Assembly (NCBI GenBank): GCA_002726335.1
Contig: PBSR01000207.1
Coordinates: forward strand, 1 to 30,691
Length of the DNA stretch: 30,691 nucleotides
Reading direction: 5' to 3'
From: Gemmatimonadaceae bacterium
Lineage (GTDB): Bacteria; Latescibacterota; UBA2968; UBA8231
The notes below the pieces were generated by a model that was given only the letters and a program-made list of their open reading frames with translations, was not told the origin of the DNA and searched no databases. Position numbers and translations under genes: made by a program. Below, piece by piece: positions 6,903 through 15,971 of the stretch (position 1 is its first letter; every line of letters begins with the position of its first letter).

Positions 6903-7466
6903 ATGGCAGTAGGACGTATGCAGTCGGGGATTCTCTCGCCTCCAGGCGTATGGTGGACCCCCGCCAACAAGCAGGAGAAGCTCTGGGTCACGATCGCCTT
7001 TGTCTGGTGCATGATCCTTTTCGCAATGATGCCCCTCTGGCACATCAAGGGTGGGCAGAACCCCTCGGGAATCCGGGCCAAGGTCACAGCCGAGGCCTTT
7101 ACGGCCCGGGTGAACCAGTTCGTTGCCGACTATCAGGTCGGGCAGGAGCAGGGCATACCCGTAGTCGCCCCGCCGCCCGGCAGCGATGTGTATCTGGTGG
7201 CTCGCATGTGGCAGTGGTATCCGGTGGTCAAGCTGCAGGAGGGCGCCAACTACACGCTGCACCTGTCGTCGTCGGATCTCAACCACGGTTTCAGCCTCTT
7301 TCCGCTCAACATCAATGTTCAGGTCGTCCCCGGGTATGACTACGGCCTGCGCGTCACCCCGAACGAGGCGGGTGACTTCAGAATCATCTGTAACGAATTC
7401 TGTGGCATCGGCCACCATCTGATGGTCGGCAAGATCATCGTCGAAAAGGAAGGGGGGACGCAATGA
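6903..7466 (+). CDS. CuA-containing subunit II of a B-type heme-copper reductase (NorS/CbaB-like)
   Basis: 187 residues, short like ba3-type subunit II, with one N-terminal membrane helix (around residues 23-46) and a periplasmic cupredoxin domain. All CuA ligands are present: H128 (SDLNHGF), C163, E165 (backbone), C167, H171 and M174 in CNEFCGIGHHLM. The subunit can therefore take electrons from a cytochrome c or cupredoxin and pass them to subunit I. The stop overlaps the start of subunit I (ATGA), implying coupled translation. Gene order IIa-II-I-SCO matches both cba oxidase operons and the norS-norY-senC operons of ammonia oxidizers. The partner's active site argues for the latter. Confidence 0.85.
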   Translation: MAVGRMQSGILSPPGVWWTPANKQEKLWVTIAFVWCMILFAMMPLWHIKGGQNPSGIRAKVTAEAFTARVNQFVADYQVGQEQGIPVVAPPPGSDVYLVARMWQWYPVVKLQEGANYTLHLSSSDLNHGFSLFPLNINVQVVPGYDYGLRVTPNEAGDFRIICNEFCGIGHHLMVGKIIVEKEGGTQ

Positions 7467-9193
7467 GCGCATCCGTGCAAGCTCTGGCAGATCGCTTTCG
7501 CGTCTGCTCGGTGACCGGACTCAAGGTCGACAGGAATGCCGAGAACCTCATCAAGATCAACGCCGTTGTCGCCGTTGTCTGTCTGCTCATCGGCTCGCTG
7601 GCTGCTGTCGGAATCGCCCTGACCCGTTGGGAGGCCGTACACCTGCTGCCAGCGGATCTGTTCTATCGATTCCTGACCGCCCACGGCCTCAACATGCTCA
7701 TCTTCTTTATCGTCTTCTTCGAGATGGCATTGCTCTACTTCGCCGGGCCGGTGCTGCTCAACAGCCGTCTGCCGGCGCCCAAGCTGGGTTGGGTCTGCTT
7801 CGTGCTGATGATCATCGGTATGGTGATGACGAACACCATGGTCTTCATCGGCAAGGCGGATGTGCTCTTCACCTCGTACCCGCCACTCAAGGCACACCCG
7901 CTCTACTACCTGGGCATCATCCTCTTTGCTGTCGGCGCGTTGCTGGTCTCCTTCCACTTCATCGCGACCATCATCATCGCCAAGAAGGAAGGCAGCTATG
8001 AAGGCTCGATGCCGCTGGTCACCTTCGGGGCCCTGACGGCGGCGATCATCGCCGTGATCACACTCGTACACGGCGCTCTCATCTACGTCCCGACGTTGCT
8101 GTGGTCGATGGATCTGATGCCGATGGACGCGCAGATCTACCGGCTGATCTTCTGGGCGCTGGGTCACAGTGCGCAGCAGATCAACGTAGCAGCCATGGTG
8201 GCGGTCTGGTATTTCCTGGCCGCCGTGACGGTGGGTGGCGTGGTGGTCAACGAGAAGATCAGTCGTACGGCCTTCGTGCTCTACGTGCTCTTCATCTCGC
8301 TGGCCTCGGCGCACCATCTGCTGGTCGATCCCGGAATGGGACCGGCGTGGAAGGTGTGGAATACCAGTTACGCCATGTACCTGGCGGTGCTGGCCAGTAT
8401 GATCCACGGATTCACGGTGCCTGCCGGAATCGAGATGGGCCAACGCCTGCGCGGTTACGTCAACGGCACGTTCGAATGGTTGCGCAAGGCGCCGTGGGGT
8501 GACCCCGGTTTCTCCGGGATGATCTTCTCCGTCATCATCTTTGGCTTCTTCGGTGGTATCACCGGAGTCACCATCGGTACCGAGCAGATTAACATCATCG
8601 CCCACAACACGATGCGACTGCCGGGTCATTTCCACGCCACGGTAGTGGGAGGTACGGCGCTGTCCTTCATGGCCGTCACCTACTACGTCCTGCCGTTGAT
8701 CTTCCGCAGGCGTATCGCTTTCTGGCCGCTTGCCCGCATACAGCCGTATCTCTTTGCCGGCGGCATCACGACGATGGCCATGTCGATGACTTTCATGGGT
8801 GTCTTTGGCATACCGCGTCGGCACTGGGATACCAGCTTTTCGGGTGCCCCGTTTTCGGTCGATTTCCATCCGGTAGTCAATCTGCTGCAAGCCGGACTCG
8901 GAATCGGCGCCATGGTTGCGGCCACGGGGGCGCTGATCTTTATCGCCATCGCCGTGGTGACCGTGTTCTTCGGTAAGACCTTTACCGAGGAGGACATCGC
9001 CAACAAGGTCGCCGGGTTGCCTTCGGGCGTACTCTCGTTGCCGAACCAGGTGCACGAGGGGGAAGACATGGAGCGCGTACACACCAAGGGTGCTCCAGGT
9101 ACAGTGATTCTGGTGTTTATCTTCCTGGCGTGTTTCGTCATCTACTACTTCGCCAACTGGAAGATGCTTTCCTTCCTCTGGAAAATCGGTTGA
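7463..9193 (+). CDS. Heme-copper reductase subunit I without the catalytic Tyr: sNOR-like nitric oxide reductase (NorY-like)
   Basis: 576 residues, about 12-13 membrane helices. Metal ligands are intact: H74 (TAHGLNML, low-spin heme), H235 (LGHSAQQIN, copper or non-heme iron), H284 and H285 (SAHHLLVDPG), H389 and H391 (LPGHFH, hemes). A/B-type oxygen reductases carry a cross-linked tyrosine four residues after the helix VI histidine; here that position is Q239 (H235-S-A-Q-Q). The C-type alternative tyrosine, six residues before the HH pair, is also absent (I278; nearest is Y274). Missing both tyrosines is the hallmark of NO-reducing members. With nirK downstream and SCO adjacent, an sNOR-type NO reductase (2 NO to N2O) is the best reading. 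An atypical oxygen reductase is the alternative. Confidence 0.8.
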   Translation: MSASVQALADRFRVCSVTGLKVDRNAENLIKINAVVAVVCLLIGSLAAVGIALTRWEAVHLLPADLFYRFLTAHGLNMLIFFIVFFEMALLYFAGPVLLNSRLPAPKLGWVCFVLMIIGMVMTNTMVFIGKADVLFTSYPPLKAHPLYYLGIILFAVGALLVSFHFIATIIIAKKEGSYEGSMPLVTFGALTAAIIAVITLVHGALIYVPTLLWSMDLMPMDAQIYRLIFWALGHSAQQINVAAMVAVWYFLAAVTVGGVVVNEKISRTAFVLYVLFISLASAHHLLVDPGMGPAWKVWNTSYAMYLAVLASMIHGFTVPAGIEMGQRLRGYVNGTFEWLRKAPWGDPGFSGMIFSVIIFGFFGGITGVTIGTEQINIIAHNTMRLPGHFHATVVGGTALSFMAVTYYVLPLIFRRRIAFWPLARIQPYLFAGGITTMAMSMTFMGVFGIPRRHWDTSFSGAPFSVDFHPVVNLLQAGLGIGAMVAATGALIFIAIAVVTVFFGKTFTEEDIANKVAGLPSGVLSLPNQVHEGEDMERVHTKGAPGTVILVFIFLACFVIYYFANWKMLSFLWKIG

Positions 9194-9197
9194 GGAA

Positions 9198-9249
9198 AGG
9201 GCGCGAGATGAGGTGGCTCGTCGGGCCAGACGAGCCACCTCAGCGCCCT
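9198..9249 (+). promoter_or_regulatory. Long intercistronic hairpin between NO reductase and SCO genes
   Basis: A perfect 13-bp inverted repeat GAGGTGGCTCGTC / GACGAGCCACCTC (9210-9222 and 9229-9241, 6-nt loop) is extended at its base by AGGGCGC / GCGCCCT across small bulges. No T-tract follows, so it is more likely an mRNA-stabilising or processing element that lowers expression of the downstream genes than a terminator. Confidence 0.6.
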
Positions 9250-9266
9250 GCAGCAGGCAGTAGACT

Positions 9267-10202
9267 ATGACCGCAACGCGCGAGCCGGCGCCCATCCTGC
9301 CTGTTATCCTGCTGCTGTTCTGGGCCGCCATCAGCATGACTCTGTGGGCGATGGCGTTCTACCACGCCCCCGCGGCTACGCCCGAATGGTTGCTGCGGGC
9401 ACAGTCAGCCTGTTTCGGTACGAGCGAAACCGGGTTGCCTGACACCTACGGCTGGATGGTGCTCGTACTCGGGCCGGTGTCCCTCCTGGCAGGACTGCTC
9501 GTCGCCCTGGGAGGGGAACTGCGCCAGGGCTCAGAGGCTCTGATCGCCTCGGCCAGTGGCAAGATGTTGCTGGGCGTCGTACTGGCCACCCTGCTGGCAG
9601 AGGGGGTCTGGGTCAGCGGACGGATCGATGCCGGGGTCCGGGTGGCGGCGACAGAGTATCGGTTCGAAACGATCGACGAACTGCCGCTGGATTACCCGCG
9701 CATGCATCTGGATGTGGCGCCCTTTCTGCTGACGGATCAGCACGGCGCACAGGTTTCTCCGGTGGCATTGGGTGACAAGGTAGTTCTCCTCACCTTCGCT
9801 TTCGCCCACTGCAAGACGGTCTGTCCGGTCATTCTGGAAAACGTGCTGCAGGCGGCCGGGAACTTCCCGCCCGAGAAGGTCGAGGTGCTGGTGGTTACGT
9901 TGGATCCCTGGCGTGACACCCCGAGTTCGCTACCGGCTCTGGCCAGCCACTGGCGCCTGGGCGAAAACGCCCATGTTCTTTCCGGATCCGTCGACGATGT
10001 CGTCGCCGTGCTGGACGGCCACAAGGTTCCCCGACAGCGCGATGGCAAGACGGGGGATGTCACCCATCCGGCGCTGGTCTACGTGCTCGATACGACAGGG
10101 GTCATCGCCTACGGCTTCAACAATCCCAGCGTCAAGTGGCTCAGCACGGCAGTGGAACGGCTGCTCGAGCCGTCTGATCTGGCGGTTGACATCAGTCGAT
10201 GA
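9267..10202 (+). CDS. SCO1/SenC copper chaperone with extra N-terminal membrane helices
   Basis: 311 residues. The C-terminal half (from about residue 145) is a SCO thioredoxin fold with copper ligands C182 and C186 (FAHCKTVCPV) and H267 (DVTHPALVY). SCO proteins insert or maintain copper in CuA and related centres. Unlike a usual SCO with one anchor, this one starts with about three membrane segments (PVILLLFWAAISMTLWAMAF; WMVLVLGPVSLLAGLLVAL; MLLGVVLATLLAEGVWVSG). It directly follows the CuA enzyme genes, as senC does in norSY-senC operons. The ribosome binding site is weak and sits just after a long hairpin. The stop overlaps the start of the next gene (ATGA). Confidence 0.85.
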   Translation: MTATREPAPILPVILLLFWAAISMTLWAMAFYHAPAATPEWLLRAQSACFGTSETGLPDTYGWMVLVLGPVSLLAGLLVALGGELRQGSEALIASASGKMLLGVVLATLLAEGVWVSGRIDAGVRVAATEYRFETIDELPLDYPRMHLDVAPFLLTDQHGAQVSPVALGDKVVLLTFAFAHCKTVCPVILENVLQAAGNFPPEKVEVLVVTLDPWRDTPSSLPALASHWRLGENAHVLSGSVDDVVAVLDGHKVPRQRDGKTGDVTHPALVYVLDTTGVIAYGFNNPSVKWLSTAVERLLEPSDLAVDISR

Positions 10203-12304
10203 GCGCGGCACACGAAGAGTCCCCTTTCCAGCAGGCGGGTCTGAGTCAGGACGCATCGACGCAGCGCCCGGGCATGACAGAACTGCTGGCCCGCCTTGTA
10301 GTCCCGATCAACCACATCTTCGACCGGGCCTATCAGTCCAGATACAATCCCTTCTACCGCAGTGGCACCCTGGCGGTGGGCCTGCTGGCGATCGTCTTCG
10401 TCACGGGTCTGTATCTGCTCTTCTTCTACGACGTGGCCGCGCCTTACCAGTCGGTACGGGATATCCAACTCCAAGTCTGGATCGGACGTTGGATGCGGGC
10501 CCTGCACCGGTACGCCACCGATGCCTGTGTCGTAGCTGTGGCTTATCACATCCTGCAGGGTCAGGTACAGGACAAGACCTGGGGACCCAGAATGCTGGCG
10601 TGGGTCACCGGCGTCATCCTGTTGATCGTTCTGTGGATCTCCGGGTGGACCGGCTACGTGATGGTCTGGGACACGCAGGGTCAGTTGTTGGCCCTCGCCG
10701 GGGCGAAGATGATGCAGAGCGTACCCTTCCTGCGCGATTCGCTCGGTCAAGCCTTTAACGGCAGCACACCCGTGTCAGCATCATTCTTCTTCATGAATCT
10801 CTTCCTGCACATCGCGCTGCCCCTCGGTATGATCTTCGGCCTCTGGGTGCACACGGCGCGGTTGGCTCGCAGTGTCTGGTTTCCCCTCAGACCGATCATG
10901 TGGGTCACCGGGCTGGCCCTGCTGGCACTGTCCGTTTTCTGGCCGGCGCCGATGTTGCCAGAGGCCGACCTGTTCAAGGTGACCGGAGTGGTCGAAGTCG
11001 ACTGGTTTTTCGGCTTCTGGCTGCCCGTCTTCTCGGCCCTGTCACCCCAGCATTCGCTGGTATTCATGTGCGTCGTCCTCCTGATCGGTCTGTCGCTGCC
11101 GTGGTGGTGGCGACCGCGCAAGGGGCGAGAGCCCGAACGGTCCGTCTCTGACGAGGACAGATGCACCGGCTGTCGGCAGTGCTCACTGGACTGCCCGTAC
11201 GAAGCGATCTCCATGGTGCCGCGCGACGACGGCCGGCTGCCGCATTCCCGTGTCGACCCCAAGCTCTGCGTCAGCTGCGGTATCTGTTCGGCCTCCTGCG
11301 ATCAGCTGGCAATTGGCCCTCCGCACAGCATCGGGGCAACTCAGATGCTGTCCCTCGGAGAATTCACCCGGTCCGCCGCGCAAGGGGCTCACGGAACGGG
11401 GGTGATCGCCATCGTCTGCGAGCACAATCCCGGGGCGCGCCGTCACCTGGAGGGCTATGCCGCCCGGCACGACGGGGTGCAAGTCTACCCGACAGGCTGC
11501 ATCGGCACATTACATACGCGGATCCTGGAGCAACTGCTGAACGAGTGCGGTGGGGTGTTTGTCTGGGGATGTCCCACGCGCAACTGTCTGACGCGCGAGG
11601 GCGTGGAGTTGCTCAACCTGCGCACCTTTCACAAGCGTCCACCCTCCGTGTCGAGGCGGATCGAGAAAAACCGCCTGGAACTGGCACCGTACTCGTCGGC
11701 GGAGCGCAAGCAGGTCTTTGCCAGGCTGGACGCCTTCAAGAGCCAGCTTGAGAGCCCGGCCAGCCCCGGGACTGCCTACCGCGAGCCGGCCAGAGGCCTG
11801 CGCTATCTCAAGGCCGCTCTGGCCACGGTCTTTCTGCTGACTGCGACGGGGGCACTCAGCCGCGTGACGATGGGTGAGGAACCCACCGAGGGAGTTCTGC
11901 GCCTCGGAGCTCACATCCCGGGCCTGGTGATCGAAGACTGCCGCACGCTCAGTGCTGAGGAACTGGCCAGCCGGCCGCTGCACATGCGTCGACCGCAGGA
12001 GTGCGTCAGGATCACTCCCACCTACATCCTCACCGTGAAGGTAGACGGAGAACTGGTGGTGCGCCGGGAGATCTACCACGCCGGGGTGCGTTCCGACCGC
12101 CCGCTGTTCCTGGATGAAGAGGTGGCCGTGCCACCTGGCACACACCGTTTCGTCGTCGATCTCAGACCGGAGGATGAGGATCTGGAACAAGCGCCACGGA
12201 TGGATTTCGAAACAGAGGTCGTCGTCGAAGCGGGCGCGATCTATCTGGTGGGGTACGATCCGCAGGCAAAGACCATGCAGTTGATGGACAATCCAGGACG
12301 CTGA
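10199..12304 (+). CDS. Cytochrome b / 2[4Fe-4S] ferredoxin / FlpD (MvhD-like) fusion protein
   Basis: 701 residues in one frame. (1) Cytochrome b N-terminal-type membrane domain, residues ~25-300, with two bis-histidine heme pairs, H103/H117 with H204/H218, each pair spaced by 13 residues. (2) Two 4Fe-4S motifs, CTGCRQCSLDC (C322-C332) and CVSCGICSASC (C357-C367). (3) An FlpD/MvhD-like domain, ~390-485 (VIAIVCEHN.., YPTGCIGTLH, FVWGCPTRNC). (4) A further membrane helix near 538-557 and about 140 exported residues with no recognised fold. MvhD/FlpD domains pass electrons between Fe-S modules in hydrogenase, formate dehydrogenase and Hdr systems. With cytochrome b, the protein could link a cytoplasmic donor or the quinone pool to the NO/nitrite chain. 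Domains are clear; the role is inference. Confidence 0.8.
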   Translation: MSAAHEESPFQQAGLSQDASTQRPGMTELLARLVVPINHIFDRAYQSRYNPFYRSGTLAVGLLAIVFVTGLYLLFFYDVAAPYQSVRDIQLQVWIGRWMRALHRYATDACVVAVAYHILQGQVQDKTWGPRMLAWVTGVILLIVLWISGWTGYVMVWDTQGQLLALAGAKMMQSVPFLRDSLGQAFNGSTPVSASFFFMNLFLHIALPLGMIFGLWVHTARLARSVWFPLRPIMWVTGLALLALSVFWPAPMLPEADLFKVTGVVEVDWFFGFWLPVFSALSPQHSLVFMCVVLLIGLSLPWWWRPRKGREPERSVSDEDRCTGCRQCSLDCPYEAISMVPRDDGRLPHSRVDPKLCVSCGICSASCDQLAIGPPHSIGATQMLSLGEFTRSAAQGAHGTGVIAIVCEHNPGARRHLEGYAARHDGVQVYPTGCIGTLHTRILEQLLNECGGVFVWGCPTRNCLTREGVELLNLRTFHKRPPSVSRRIEKNRLELAPYSSAERKQVFARLDAFKSQLESPASPGTAYREPARGLRYLKAALATVFLLTATGALSRVTMGEEPTEGVLRLGAHIPGLVIEDCRTLSAEELASRPLHMRRPQECVRITPTYILTVKVDGELVVRREIYHAGVRSDRPLFLDEEVAVPPGTHRFVVDLRPEDEDLEQAPRMDFETEVVVEAGAIYLVGYDPQAKTMQLMDNPGR

Positions 12305-12320
12305 ACCTGATCATCTCGAA

Positions 12321-12350
12321 ATCCCGTCAGGAAGATGGGGTGTTTTTTTT
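12321..12350 (+). terminator. Intrinsic terminator or attenuator just ahead of nirK
   Basis: An 8-bp stem ATCCCGTC / GATGGGGT (two G-U pairs in RNA), loop AGGAA, then GTTTTTTTT. This is a convincing intrinsic terminator. It ends only 27 nt before the nirK ATG, with no room for a normal promoter between. Confidence 0.75.
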
Positions 12351-12377
12351 CATGGCAGAAGTTGAGAGGGAAATGAC

Positions 12378-13808
12378 ATGAAGTTCGCTCGCTCGTTGCA
12401 TCGTGCCCTGCCTCTGGGCATGGTGGCAGCCGCACTGACCTTCGCCTCGATGGCGCAGGCGCAACAGATCAGCAGCGTGATCAAGGGGCGCGAGGTGGCC
12501 ATCACCACCTATGCTCCAGAGGTGCCGCCACCCATCACACGAGCACACAACTCGATCGTCGTCGTGGAACTCGAGACCGTCGAGGTCAATGGTCGTCTGG
12601 CCGATGGTGTGGAGTACACCTTCTGGACCTTCGGTGGGCGCGTACCGGGTAAGATGATCCGCGTACGTGAAGGCGATCTCGTGGAGTTTCATCTGAGCAA
12701 CCACCCGAGCAGCAAAATGCCGCACAATATCGATCTGCACGCGGTGACCGGCCCGGGCGGTGGCGCCACTTCCTCCTTCACCACACCCGGACACACCTCT
12801 GTGTTCTCCTTCCAGGCCATCAATCCCGGTCTGTTCGTCTACCACTGCGCCACCGCGCCGGTGGGTATGCATATCGCCAATGGCATGTACGGGCTGATTC
12901 TGGTGGAGCCCAAGGAGGGCATGCCTCAGGTGGACCGTGAATACTATGTGATGCAGAGCGAGTTCTACACCGCGGGCGCCCATGGCGACGCCGGGCTGCA
13001 GCCCTTCGACATGGCCAAGGCGCTGCGGGAACAGCCGGACTACGTCGTCTTCAACGGCTCCGTGGGAGCCATGATGGGGGACAACGCTCTGCATGCTGAG
13101 GTGGGCGAATCGGTGCGCCTCTACGTGGGCAACGGTGGTCCGAACCTGGTCTCGTCCTTCCATGTGATCGGTGAGATCTTCGACAGGGTGTACCCGGAGG
13201 GCGGCTTCAGTGTCCACGAAAACGTGCAGACGACGCTGATCCCATCCGGCGGATCCGCAATGGTGGAGTACCGGCTTCAGGTTCCCGGGAACTACATCCT
13301 CGTGGACCATTCCATCTTCCGTGCCTTCAACAAGGGCGCGTTGGGTGTGATGACCGTCACGGGAGAGGACAACAAGACGGTTTATTCCGGCAAGGTGATG
13401 GAAGAGATCTACCAGCCGGAAGGCGGTGCAGCACAATCGATCCAGGTTGCCGGCGACCCCGTAGTAGCCAGCAACAAGGCAGAACGCGTCGAGTTCGGTC
13501 AGCGTGTCTACAACCAGATCTGTACGGCCTGTCATCAGACGAGCGGACTCGGTGTTCCCGGAGCATTCCCGCCGCTGGCTGAATCGGACTACCTGAATGC
13601 CGACAAGGGTCGCGCCATCGACATCGTCATCAACGGTCTGAGTGGGCCTGTCACGGTCAACGGCAAGGAATACAACGGTCAGATGCCCGCTTGGCAGCTC
13701 GCCGATGAAGACATCGCCAACGTGCTGACCTTCGTGTACGACTCGTGGGGGAATGCCGGCTATGAGGTCACGCCGGAAGACGTGGCCAGGCAACGCAAGA
13801 CCGATTGA
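12378..13808 (+). CDS. nirK: Copper nitrite reductase NirK fused to C-terminal cytochrome c
   Basis: 476 residues; signal peptide to about AQA-Q (residue 28). Two cupredoxin domains contain the full NirK set. Type 1 copper: H116, C157, H165, M170. Type 2 copper: H121, H156, H311. Catalytic D119 (MPHNIDLHA) and H262 ([10 protein letters not shown]) are present. The [16 protein letters not shown] spacing is the AniA/class II type. Residues ~370-470 form a cytochrome c domain with CTACH (C382, C385, H386) and probable axial M436 (GQMPAW). The enzyme reduces nitrite to NO in the periplasm, and the fused heme would feed the type 1 copper. ATG at 12378 has GAGAGGG seven nt upstream. The nirV frame overlaps its stop. 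Confidence 0.95.
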
Positions 13809-14689
13809 TCCAGGCTGGGTACAGGGCTGTGCACCAGGAGAACCGTCTACTGGTGCTCCTGGTGCCGGTCATTCTGGTACTGGCTGCCTGCGCGCACATC
13901 GGGACACAGCCTGAGATACCGGCGTCTGACAGCATGATCGCCATCCCGGCCGGCGTGTATCGGTCTCTGTATCGCTCGAGCGAACTGAACCCACAGGGGC
14001 CGCTGGACGATGCCCCTGTGGGTCTGCCCCCCGGCCAGGAGCCGGTCGGGTCATTTCATCTTGATGCCTATCAGGCGACCAACGCCGACTACCTGGCCTT
14101 CGTGCGGGAGCAGACCAGATGGCGGCGCTCACAGGTAGTGCGGCTCTTCGCCGACTCCCAGTATCTGGCGACCTGGAAGGAGGACCTGGCACCAGGTCCG
14201 CAAGCGCCGGCACATTCGCCGGTGGTGCACGTATCCTGGTTCGCTGCCAAGGCCTACTGCCAGTGGCAGGGCAAGCAGCTGCCCACCACGGCTCAGTGGG
14301 AGCTTGCCGCGGCAGCATCGGAGACCGATCCTGATGGGACTCGAGATCCCGGCTTCACACGACGCATCCTCGACTGGTACGGACGACCCGCGCCAGAGGT
14401 CCCGACCGACGTCGGCTCCGTCTACCGCAACCTGTGGGGAGTGCACGACCTGCACGGATCCATCTGGGAATGGACTCTGGACTTCAACACGGCGCTGGTC
14501 TCCGGTGAGTCTCGAGGGGATTCGGGGCTGGAGCGGAACCTGTTTTGTGGGGCGGCGTCGATCGGGGCCGCCGACACCAGCGACTACGCCGCCTTCATGC
14601 GCTACGCTTTCCGCAGCAGTCTGCAGGCTGACTATACGGTCTCCAGTCTCGGCTTTCGCTGCGCCCGGGCAGGAGCAAACGTCAGATGA
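13805..14689 (+). CDS. nirV: NirV: FGE-sulfatase-like (SUMF1) lipoprotein linked to nirK
   Basis: A formylglycine-generating-enzyme fold ([58 protein letters not shown]) immediately downstream of nirK, the usual place for nirV in denitrifiers. A lipobox (ILVLAAC) suggests membrane anchoring in the periplasm. The two cysteines that catalyse formylglycine formation in true FGE (from the CxxxxC before AARS) correspond to A262 and Y267 in [13 protein letters not shown], so FGE chemistry is unlikely. The role of NirV is not settled; maturation or assembly of NirK is the usual guess. The listed TTG start overlaps the nirK stop; GTG at 13829 ([10 protein letters not shown]..) gives a cleaner signal peptide and may be the true start. 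Confidence 0.8.
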
Positions 14690-15345
14690 TAAAACCAGGC
14701 AAGCCCATGGGTGACACACCGCGGCTCTTTGTCATGCTCAGTCTCCTGAGCCTGTCGGGAGGAGCGATGGCGGAGACCGGGCACGACCACCACGAGCAGG
14801 CGCCGTCCGAGTTGGCCCCGGATCCGCGACCGGCAGGGATGGCGGAAATGTCCATCTACCAGCTCGGATCAACCTGGCGCGATGATCGGTCTGTGGCATG
14901 TCCCATCGATACGCTCTCTGGTCAGCCCGTGGTCCTGGCGATGGTTTACACCAGTTGCGAGTACGTTTGCCCGATGCTGCTGGAAGACATGAAGCAGATC
15001 GAGATCCAGCTCGAGCCGGCGGCACGCAAGGCAATCACCTTCGCACTGTTCTCCTTCGATCCTGAGCGCGATTCACCGGTTGCTCTGGCCACCTACCGAA
15101 TCCAGCAAAGTCTGGACGCGCAGAACTGGAGACTGTTCACCGGGGCCCCCAATGATATACTTGAACTTGCAGCCGTCCTGGGGGTCAGGTACAAGCCAGA
15201 CGGCTACGGCGGCTTTTCGCATTCCAACATCATCACCGTACTCGATGCCGACGGCATCGTGCGTCATCAACAGGTCGGGCTGCGACAGCCGACCGACGCG
15301 ATTGTGACCGTCCTCAAAGATCTCTCAGAAAGCGAGAAGAAATGA
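14686..15345 (+). CDS. Second SCO1/SenC-family copper chaperone
   Basis: 219 residues: signal or anchor segment at residues ~12-29, a His-rich stretch (GHDHHEQ), then a SCO thioredoxin fold with C91 and C95 (YTSCEYVCPM) and H179 (GFSHSN), the copper ligands. It overlaps nirV (ATGA) and is followed, with a 4-nt overlap, by the cytochrome gene. Being in the nirK half of the cluster, it may serve NirK, leaving the membrane-embedded SCO for the CuA site. That division of labour is inference. Confidence 0.85.
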   Translation: MIKPGKPMGDTPRLFVMLSLLSLSGGAMAETGHDHHEQAPSELAPDPRPAGMAEMSIYQLGSTWRDDRSVACPIDTLSGQPVVLAMVYTSCEYVCPMLLEDMKQIEIQLEPAARKAITFALFSFDPERDSPVALATYRIQQSLDAQNWRLFTGAPNDILELAAVLGVRYKPDGYGGFSHSNIITVLDADGIVRHQQVGLRQPTDAIVTVLKDLSESEKK

Positions 15346-15971
15346 AGAACCCGATCATTGCCTCTGTGACTCTGGTGCTGTGCCTTGCCGCGGCGACGAA
15401 TACCGAGGCTGCCGGCAATGCAGAGACCGGCAAGGCCCTCTACGCCATCTGCGTCGCCTGCCACGGTGTCAACGGCGAGGGCAACACCCTGTTGAACTCA
15501 CCTGTCATCGGCGGGCAGGAAGAGTGGTACGTCACGAGAGAGTTGCAGTACTTCAAGACAGGGATCCGGGGGACCGATTCGCTGGACGTATTCGGCGCCC
15601 AGATGCGTCCGATGGCGATGACCCTGACCAGTGAACAGGCCATCGCCGATGTCGCCGCCTATGTGACCTCCCTCAAACCGCCGGTTCCGCCGACCACCAT
15701 CAAGGGGGACGTTGCAGCAGGTAAGGCGGGTTTCGCCCTGTGTGTCGCCTGCCACGGCGCCAAGGGTGAAGGCAACATCGCCTTCAATGCACCGCGTCTG
15801 ACCGGACAATATGACTGGTATATGGCGCGGCAACTGGCGAATTTCAAGGCCGGCATCCGCGGGTCTAAGCCGGAGGATACCTTCGGTATGCAGATGCGGC
15901 CCATGGCCATGACTCTGATAGATGAAGCTGCCATCAATAACATGGCGGCGTTCATCTCCACACTGAAGTAG
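15342..15971 (+). CDS. Periplasmic diheme cytochrome c (cytochrome c4-like)
   Basis: 209 residues with a signal peptide (cleavage near TEA-AG, residue ~24). Two similar class I domains each carry CVACHG (C37/C40/H41; C134/C137/H138) and a methionine-rich axial region (FGAQMRPMAMTL; FGMQMRPMAMTL). The duplication is close enough to look like a direct gene-internal repeat. Such c4/c553-type proteins shuttle electrons in the periplasm; here it is the obvious donor for NirK and for the CuA subunit. It is the last gene of the cluster before a strong hairpin. Confidence 0.9.
   Translation: MKNPIIASVTLVLCLAAATNTEAAGNAETGKALYAICVACHGVNGEGNTLLNSPVIGGQEEWYVTRELQYFKTGIRGTDSLDVFGAQMRPMAMTLTSEQAIADVAAYVTSLKPPVPPTTIKGDVAAGKAGFALCVACHGAKGEGNIAFNAPRLTGQYDWYMARQLANFKAGIRGSKPEDTFGMQMRPMAMTLIDEAAINNMAAFISTLK

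Follow-up and report, generated by a model that had tools for sequence, protein, structure and literature searches.

Gene Organization of the Locus

We analyzed a stretch of 30,691 nucleotides, hereafter the window, which is contig PBSR01000207.1 of assembly GCA_002726335.1 (Gemmatimonadaceae bacterium; Latescibacterota in GTDB). Positions 10199–12304 of its plus strand hold a single uninterrupted reading frame for a protein of 701 amino acids, in which a diheme cytochrome b, two 4Fe-4S sites, an FlpD domain, an additional membrane helix and a putatively exported tail are fused. The gene belongs to a run of eight (6903–15971), all on the plus strand and with five 4-base overlaps, in the order CoxII-like subunit, nitric oxide (NO) reductase-like (NOR-like) subunit, SCO protein, fusion protein, NirK with cytochrome c, FGE-type protein, second SCO protein and diheme cytochrome c. 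The run probably forms one operon. The original prediction, made from the letters of the window, had placed the fusion between NO-reductase/SCO genes and nirK, and our Pfam and NCBIfam scans found the neighbours just as it named them.

Architecture of the Fusion Protein

The N-terminal part is a cytochrome b. Pfam Cytochrome_B covers residues 46–221 (10334–10861, plus strand, as for all features given below; 61.7 bits against a cut-off of 27.2), that is, helices A–D with the four haem histidines, and two more cytochrome b membrane helices follow at residues 231–303 (10889–11107; model helices 231–247 and 283–303). Next come a Fer4 pair at about residues 317–371, with two 4Fe-4S sites (11147–11311; PF00037/PF12838), and an FlpD/MvhD domain at residues 403–518 (11405–11752; PF02662, 30.3 bits against 22.3). 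A seventh membrane helix at residues 532–553 (11792–11857, from the model) leads to the tail domain (11864–12301). The AlphaFold2 model of the whole protein (predicted local distance difference test, pLDDT, 89.7; predicted template modelling score, pTM, 0.88) consists of six cytochrome b helices, a head of ferredoxin and FlpD domains, the seventh helix and a beta-rich tail.

In an alignment of 40 sequences the haem ligands H103, H117, H204 and H218 (two pairs, each with a spacing of 14) are invariant, as expected for two bis-His haem sites, and so are the eight Fer4 cysteines and the four FlpD cysteines (C407, C434, C458, C463), whose role we take to be the one familiar for this domain. When 84 cores (the protein without its tail) from the fetched loci described below were aligned with the window, the four histidines were kept in 85 of 85 rows and the Fer4/FlpD cysteines in 79–85, the lowest being C463 with 79 and up to two gapped rows being scored as misses. 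The four-part fusion that had been proposed is thus borne out by the intact frame, the Pfam domains, the invariant ligands and a model with the extra helix and tail.

A protein search with the fusion gave 601 proteins at E ≤ 0.001 among 7998 candidates scored, a count that may take in proteins sharing a single domain only. The best 120 homologues listed are 37–74% identical to it (the window's own record aside), and most match more than 90% of the query, tail included. A chance origin of the fusion is thereby excluded, and we regard it as a conserved protein family.

The Neighbouring NO Reductase and Other Genes of the Run

The CoxII-like subunit (6903–7466) matches PF00116, and TIGR02866 below its cut-off. 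Its best match in the PDB is the CuA domain of the T. thermophilus ba3 oxidase, and the CuA motif, read directly from the sequence, is complete (CNEFCGIGHHLM with an upstream His). For the catalytic subunit (7463–9193; PF00115, 225 bits) the closest solved relative is likewise the ba3 oxidase, a B-family haem-copper enzyme (E 2.2e-43). The active-site Tyr of ba3 aligns with the Gln of the motif GHSAQQIN, which is kept in relatives; QQ and N are invariant in 29 alignment rows. Judged from these features the pair is a B-family (ba3-like) NO reductase, composed of a CuA subunit and a ba3-like subunit, and is predicted to reduce NO. B-family NO reductases make N2O. The signs of subtype diverge, with a Gln as in eNOR and a gene order like that of sNOR; Table A4 of PMC8756737 lists Gln at the active-site position for eNOR and Asn for sNOR.

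The SCO1/SenC protein between reductase and fusion (9267–10202; PF02630) keeps its Cys-x3-Cys motif, and its gene shares four bases with the fusion gene, a translational overlap. Downstream of the fusion lies a NirK copper nitrite reductase (12378–13808; TIGR02376, 360 bits) with a fused C-terminal cytochrome c domain (PF00034), so this nitrite reductase may carry its own donor haem. It is followed by an FGE-sulfatase-type protein (13805–14689; PF03781, 122 bits), which we take to be NirV-like, by the second SCO1/SenC protein (14686–15345; PF02630) and by the diheme cytochrome c (15342–15971; PF00034 in two stretches).

Co-Occurrence of the Core and the Reductase

To the relatives found by search we added their surroundings: the best 80 of at least 162 confirmed candidates on GTDB contigs and one plasmid locus from Defluviimonas (L081), 81 loci in total, many of them cut by contig ends. 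The reductase subunit (more than 300 bits) was present in 67 of the 81, and an SCO match likewise in 67. The Defluviimonas plasmid carries CoxII, CoxI, heme o synthase, SCO, core, tail and hemerythrin genes in that order. A search with its protein gave 4427 proteins (with the same caveat about single shared domains), and the 120 listed are 70–100% identical to it, the named ones being mainly Rhodobacterales. In 14 loci the fetched piece had no reductase; eight of these genomes have one elsewhere in the assembly at more than 500 bits (G380 when read through three stops), and in G376 a reductase piece lies at a contig edge.

Whole genomes were then surveyed with two profiles, one for the core (E ≤ 1e-60) and one for the reductase (E ≤ 1e-80, in Gemmatimonadota), over identical genome sets. 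The group names Gemmatimonadota, Bdellovibrionota and Nitrospirota used here are inferred, and genomes were counted irrespective of completeness. Among 298 Gemmatimonadota genomes, 64 had both genes, three the core only, three the reductase only and 228 neither. In other words, the reductase accompanies the core in 64 of 67 genomes, against 3 of 231 genomes without core. The Fisher odds ratio is 1621; the groups were centred on genomes picked for having the core gene and relatedness inflates significance, yet the pattern recurs in three groups. The reductase count depends on one decision. At the cut-off 87 genomes were positive, of which 20 (best matches about 273–311 bits) were set apart as presumed other oxidases, while the 67 kept have best matches above 500 bits, except for one of them, a 317-bit piece at a contig edge beside a core. 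None of the 20 has the core; counting these weaker, oxidase-like matches would raise the reductase-only class from 3 to 23 (23 of 231). Where core and reductase lie on the same contig (61 of 64), they are always divergent, 0.9–8.6 kb apart, with a median gap of 1349 bases. In one reductase-only genome, G276, no core was found in the stretch examined.

The 45 Bdellovibrionota genomes include six with the core and seven with the reductase (both 5, core only 1, reductase only 2, neither 37), and the 198 Nitrospirota genomes have 14 of each (both 12, core only 2, reductase only 2, neither 182). Of the 14 Nitrospirota reductase matches, 11 span stop codons, perhaps as the profile exceeds these shorter proteins. 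Taken over all 541 genomes, 81 have both genes, six the core only, seven the reductase only and 447 neither. The core therefore co-occurs almost one-to-one with one type of B-family NO reductase in three groups.

The original prediction had tied the fusion to denitrification. Our data strongly support the part that concerns NO reduction: relatives unlinked to NO or nitrite reduction were to count against the prediction, and there are six exceptions among 87 genomes that have the core. The support does not extend to denitrification as a whole, since a NirK-like match above 150 bits was seen in only 8 of the 81 loci, many of which are cut by contig ends. Because the linkage to nirK is so much weaker, we take the theme of these clusters to be NO reduction.

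The Tail Domain

The tail is fused to the core in only some relatives. Among 84 cores, 28 are fused to it, 52 have a tail open reading frame (ORF) elsewhere in the locus and four have none in the fetched piece; for the second core copy of locus L069, counted among the 52, the tail ORF belongs to the other copy. Since 52 of the 84 cores lack the tail and have it as an ORF in the same locus, it is not a random appendage. In Gemmatimonadota it is a separate adjacent gene: all 67 core genomes have a tail match, which lies within 270 bases of the core in 66, the sole match of G169 sitting on a different contig from the core. Only 2 of 69 tail genomes in this group have no core. On a tree of 78 cores (L011, L016, L034, L048, L064, L070 and L071 omitted; rows of up to 380 residues to be dropped) the distribution of fused and split forms needs five changes, of which well-supported branches demand at least three and the tail-less L069 copy accounts for one.

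Pfam has no match for the tail of the window at E ≤ 10, a FixG-type domain included, and a scan of six tails gave none except one insignificant. Among short proteins a profile search returned 110 tail matches; a single one of them has a Pfam domain, which is FlpD. The model of the tail (146 residues, pLDDT 94.3) is a beta-sandwich with a loop bounded by cysteines and bearing a His and a Met; its export is expected from the topology. Comparison with PDB structures gave no convincing relative. The tail had been said to have no recognised fold, which holds in the sense that a Pfam family and a convincing PDB relative are both lacking, but the fold itself is confidently modelled.

Conservation in the tail was counted over 57 tails; counts from the alignment of 84 cores and the window were not used, as tail-less cores misalign there. 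Of these, 55 keep the His and 56 the Met. The two cysteines are both present in 55 and both absent in two (L010 and L063), and these two keep the His-Met. The idea that the cysteine pair binds copper is weakened by this joint loss; a disulfide-closed loop that presents the His-Met would be the simplest reading.

The tail occurs apart from the core in three Gemmatimonadota genomes: G292, G158 (a weak match) and, as an extra copy before a hemerythrin gene, G194. The surroundings of the core-free tail in G292 and G194 contain no clear partner gene. In two distant genomes a hemerythrin gene (L081:11140–11544 and L087:7321–7716) comes directly after a tail gene, which in L087 is not near the core.

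Role of the Fusion Protein

What could such a protein do for the reductase? Probably it is a dedicated partner, either in electron transfer or in maturation. Of the two, electron supply is favoured by a modest margin, and our tentative proposal, to which we give slightly less than even confidence, is that the fusion serves the B-family (ba3-like) NO reductase as a dedicated partner for electron transfer across the membrane. The FlpD/ferredoxin head would lie in the cytoplasm and the tail outside. An NADH-type cytoplasmic flavoprotein may dock on this head, or quinol may reduce the haems; the two haems would carry electrons across the membrane, and the tail would dock on the periplasmic CuA subunit or on SCO. 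Electrons could then reach the reductase, or hold its copper in the reduced state, without the help of cytochrome c. In favour of this proposal are the near one-to-one co-occurrence and frequent adjacency of core and reductase, the overlap of the SCO and fusion genes, the conserved redox ligands, the tail that accompanies the core in all 67 Gemmatimonadota core genomes, and an Rrf2-type ORF family (one member scanned) in ten loci.

A clue to the donor comes from five loci in which a gene for a NuoF-like flavoprotein lies directly beside the core (L069:12024–13418, L074:6664–7974, L075:1–1221, L078:5053–6360 and L079:7780–9090). The L069 protein matches TIGR01959 with 458 bits, which is under the cut-off, and Pfam Complex1_51K above the cut-off; the other four were assigned by similarity to it. 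In L069, L074, L078 and L079 the gene is flanked by two core copies (the second of L074 is partial), while the L075 contig begins inside it. L079, titled Deltaproteobacteria, clusters with Nitrospirota in the core tree, and the arrangement has the look of a module of Nitrospirota-type genomes that is tied to NADH. It suggests NADH as the cytoplasmic partner in the loci that have NuoF and has no direct bearing on the window or on the direction of flow. Of the low-potential cytoplasmic donor originally proposed, the existence of a candidate is thus supported, but not the direction in which electrons run.

Several observations weigh against electron supply to the reductase. Adjacency of NuoF was seen only in the Nitrospirota-type branch, the eight-gene run of the window has no gene for a cytoplasmic partner, and its diheme cytochrome c might supply CuA by the usual route. 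The core stands without reductase in six surveyed genomes, and in the phylum of G001, searched with the core profile only, it was found in one of 64 genomes, G001 itself, so that this phylum was set aside for the survey. Searches of the assemblies of G374, G378, G250, G381 and G382 gave no reductase or weaker matches (107 bits for L067). In L067 and L065 the core gene lies among housekeeping or radical-SAM genes. Finally, plasmids of Thermus (L083, L084) and Thermomicrobium (L082) encode the same type of reductase (45–50% identity, motif GHGAQQVN, CuA intact) and have no core within the 6–7 kb fetched on each side of it. In view of these reductases, catalysis does not depend on the partner everywhere; the core is the typical partner in the surveyed groups and is not universal.

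Some of these loci have other neighbours worth recording. The lone core gene L067:9134–12034 has RseC/MucC and SmpB genes in its vicinity, and the one reductase match of its genome is weak; in L021 a lactonase-type beta-propeller gene (L021:8679–9824) adjoins the core. The Thermus reductase copies adjoin genes for an Rrf2 regulator, DUF542, nitrite reductase or multicopper oxidase.

The strongest alternative, unlikely as we consider it, is reductive maturation of the kind known for CcoG: electrons delivered to the periplasm would make Cu(I) or keep the cysteines of SCO or CuA reduced during assembly of the reductase, and the tail would be a docking or copper site. The frequency of SCO genes in the loci, the overlap of the SCO and fusion genes in the window and the near-invariant His-Met of the tail are consistent with it, and the Thermus and Thermomicrobium clusters, which have no core, also have no SCO in the fetched flanks. 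According to PMC7558416, CcoG is similarly linked to an oxidase and contains two 4Fe-4S clusters as well as, at its C-terminus, a periplasmic domain of Ig-like type. However, the tail has no FixG/CcoG Pfam match, and its cysteines, kept or lost together, look like a structural disulfide rather than a copper ligand pair. No SCO was found with the cores distant from a reductase in L013, L021, L065 and L067, where contig ends limit the view. Nor should a copper reductase need as much as an FlpD domain and a pair of b haems.

Electrons might instead flow toward the cytoplasm, from quinol oxidized on the periplasmic side through haems, clusters and FlpD to an NAD- or ferredoxin-linked flavoprotein, the other electron possibly passing to CuA in a bifurcation driven by NO reduction. 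The cytochrome b fold with its cytochrome-b6-like C-D loop, an Asp in the loop after helix E (kept in 82 of 85 cores), the presumably cytoplasmic iron-sulfur head and NuoF beside the core in five loci would fit this idea. But the run contains neither a Rieske-type split site nor any other proven one, and the PEWY motif that marks true Qo sites seems to be lost, as judged by eye without alignment. We regard the idea as improbable. Slightly less probable still is its boldest form, in which quinol electrons would be split between the CuA of the reductase and cytoplasmic NAD or ferredoxin, the latter branch running over the pair of b haems, three iron-sulfur sites and a flavoprotein like NuoF; if true, NO reduction would drive the formation of low-potential reductant.

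The redox sensor that was part of the original prediction, here a redox or NO sensor signalling through the membrane, is very improbable: only the mix of redox centres with an exported domain speaks for it, while no signalling or DNA-binding domain is among the family matches listed (25 of 51 NCBIfam matches), the partnership with one enzyme is nearly one-to-one and the Rrf2 regulator near the loci (an ORF family in ten of them, whose single scanned member is an Rrf2 regulator) is a separate protein.

The near one-to-one partner with its FlpD head, two haems and tail makes the feeding of this enzyme a testable question: what is its source of electrons, and is there an NADH or quinol route without a bc1 complex? 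The family also draws attention to a tail domain that Pfam does not cover. Genetics should be feasible, as relatives occur in named Rhodobacterales, some of them apparently isolates (Defluviimonas, Tabrizicola, Marivita).

Comparison with Known Systems

In the parts of the literature covered by our incomplete search we found no description of the fusion protein together with the reductase, though prior mention is possible, and no electron donor named for this type of reductase. Table A3 of PMC8756737 has an entry, RME88945.1, with the domains cytochrome b6 and FlpD, on which the part consulted makes no comment.

The gene order resembles that of the norSY-senC-orf1 (sNOR) clusters of nitrifiers and of the CuA-NOR clusters of Bacillus, where, in the sections consulted of PMC4940428 and PMC3475470, CoxII, CoxI and SCO genes are likewise followed by a further gene. 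In Bacillus this gene is described there as coding for a small protein with 4–6 predicted helices, unlike the fusion.

With the cytochrome bc complex the fusion shares a diheme cytochrome b, but it scores below the NCBIfam cut-offs for cytochrome b6, bc1 cytochrome b and ExtP and has an iron-sulfur head instead; none of the eight run proteins scanned is a Rieske or c1 partner. CcoG/FixG, the cupric reductase of cbb3 oxidase clusters, resembles the fusion in being a membrane protein tied to an oxidase and in its two 4Fe-4S clusters; PMC7558416 gives the physiological donor of CcoG as unknown. The fusion differs in adding a diheme cytochrome b and FlpD, and in having no FixG Pfam match. The FlpD domain and its cysteine set are common to the fusion and the Mvh/Hdr systems, while no Hdr, hydrogenase or formate dehydrogenase genes are among the eight run proteins scanned. 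The C-terminal ferredoxin and MvhD/FlpD module of HdrA2 is also recognizable: residues 312–519 of the fusion match positions 569–770 of NF040770 (52 bits, below the cut-off), and 40 of 40 relatives match this model too. The fusion has no HdrA flavin domain, and the module is joined to a membrane cytochrome b instead.

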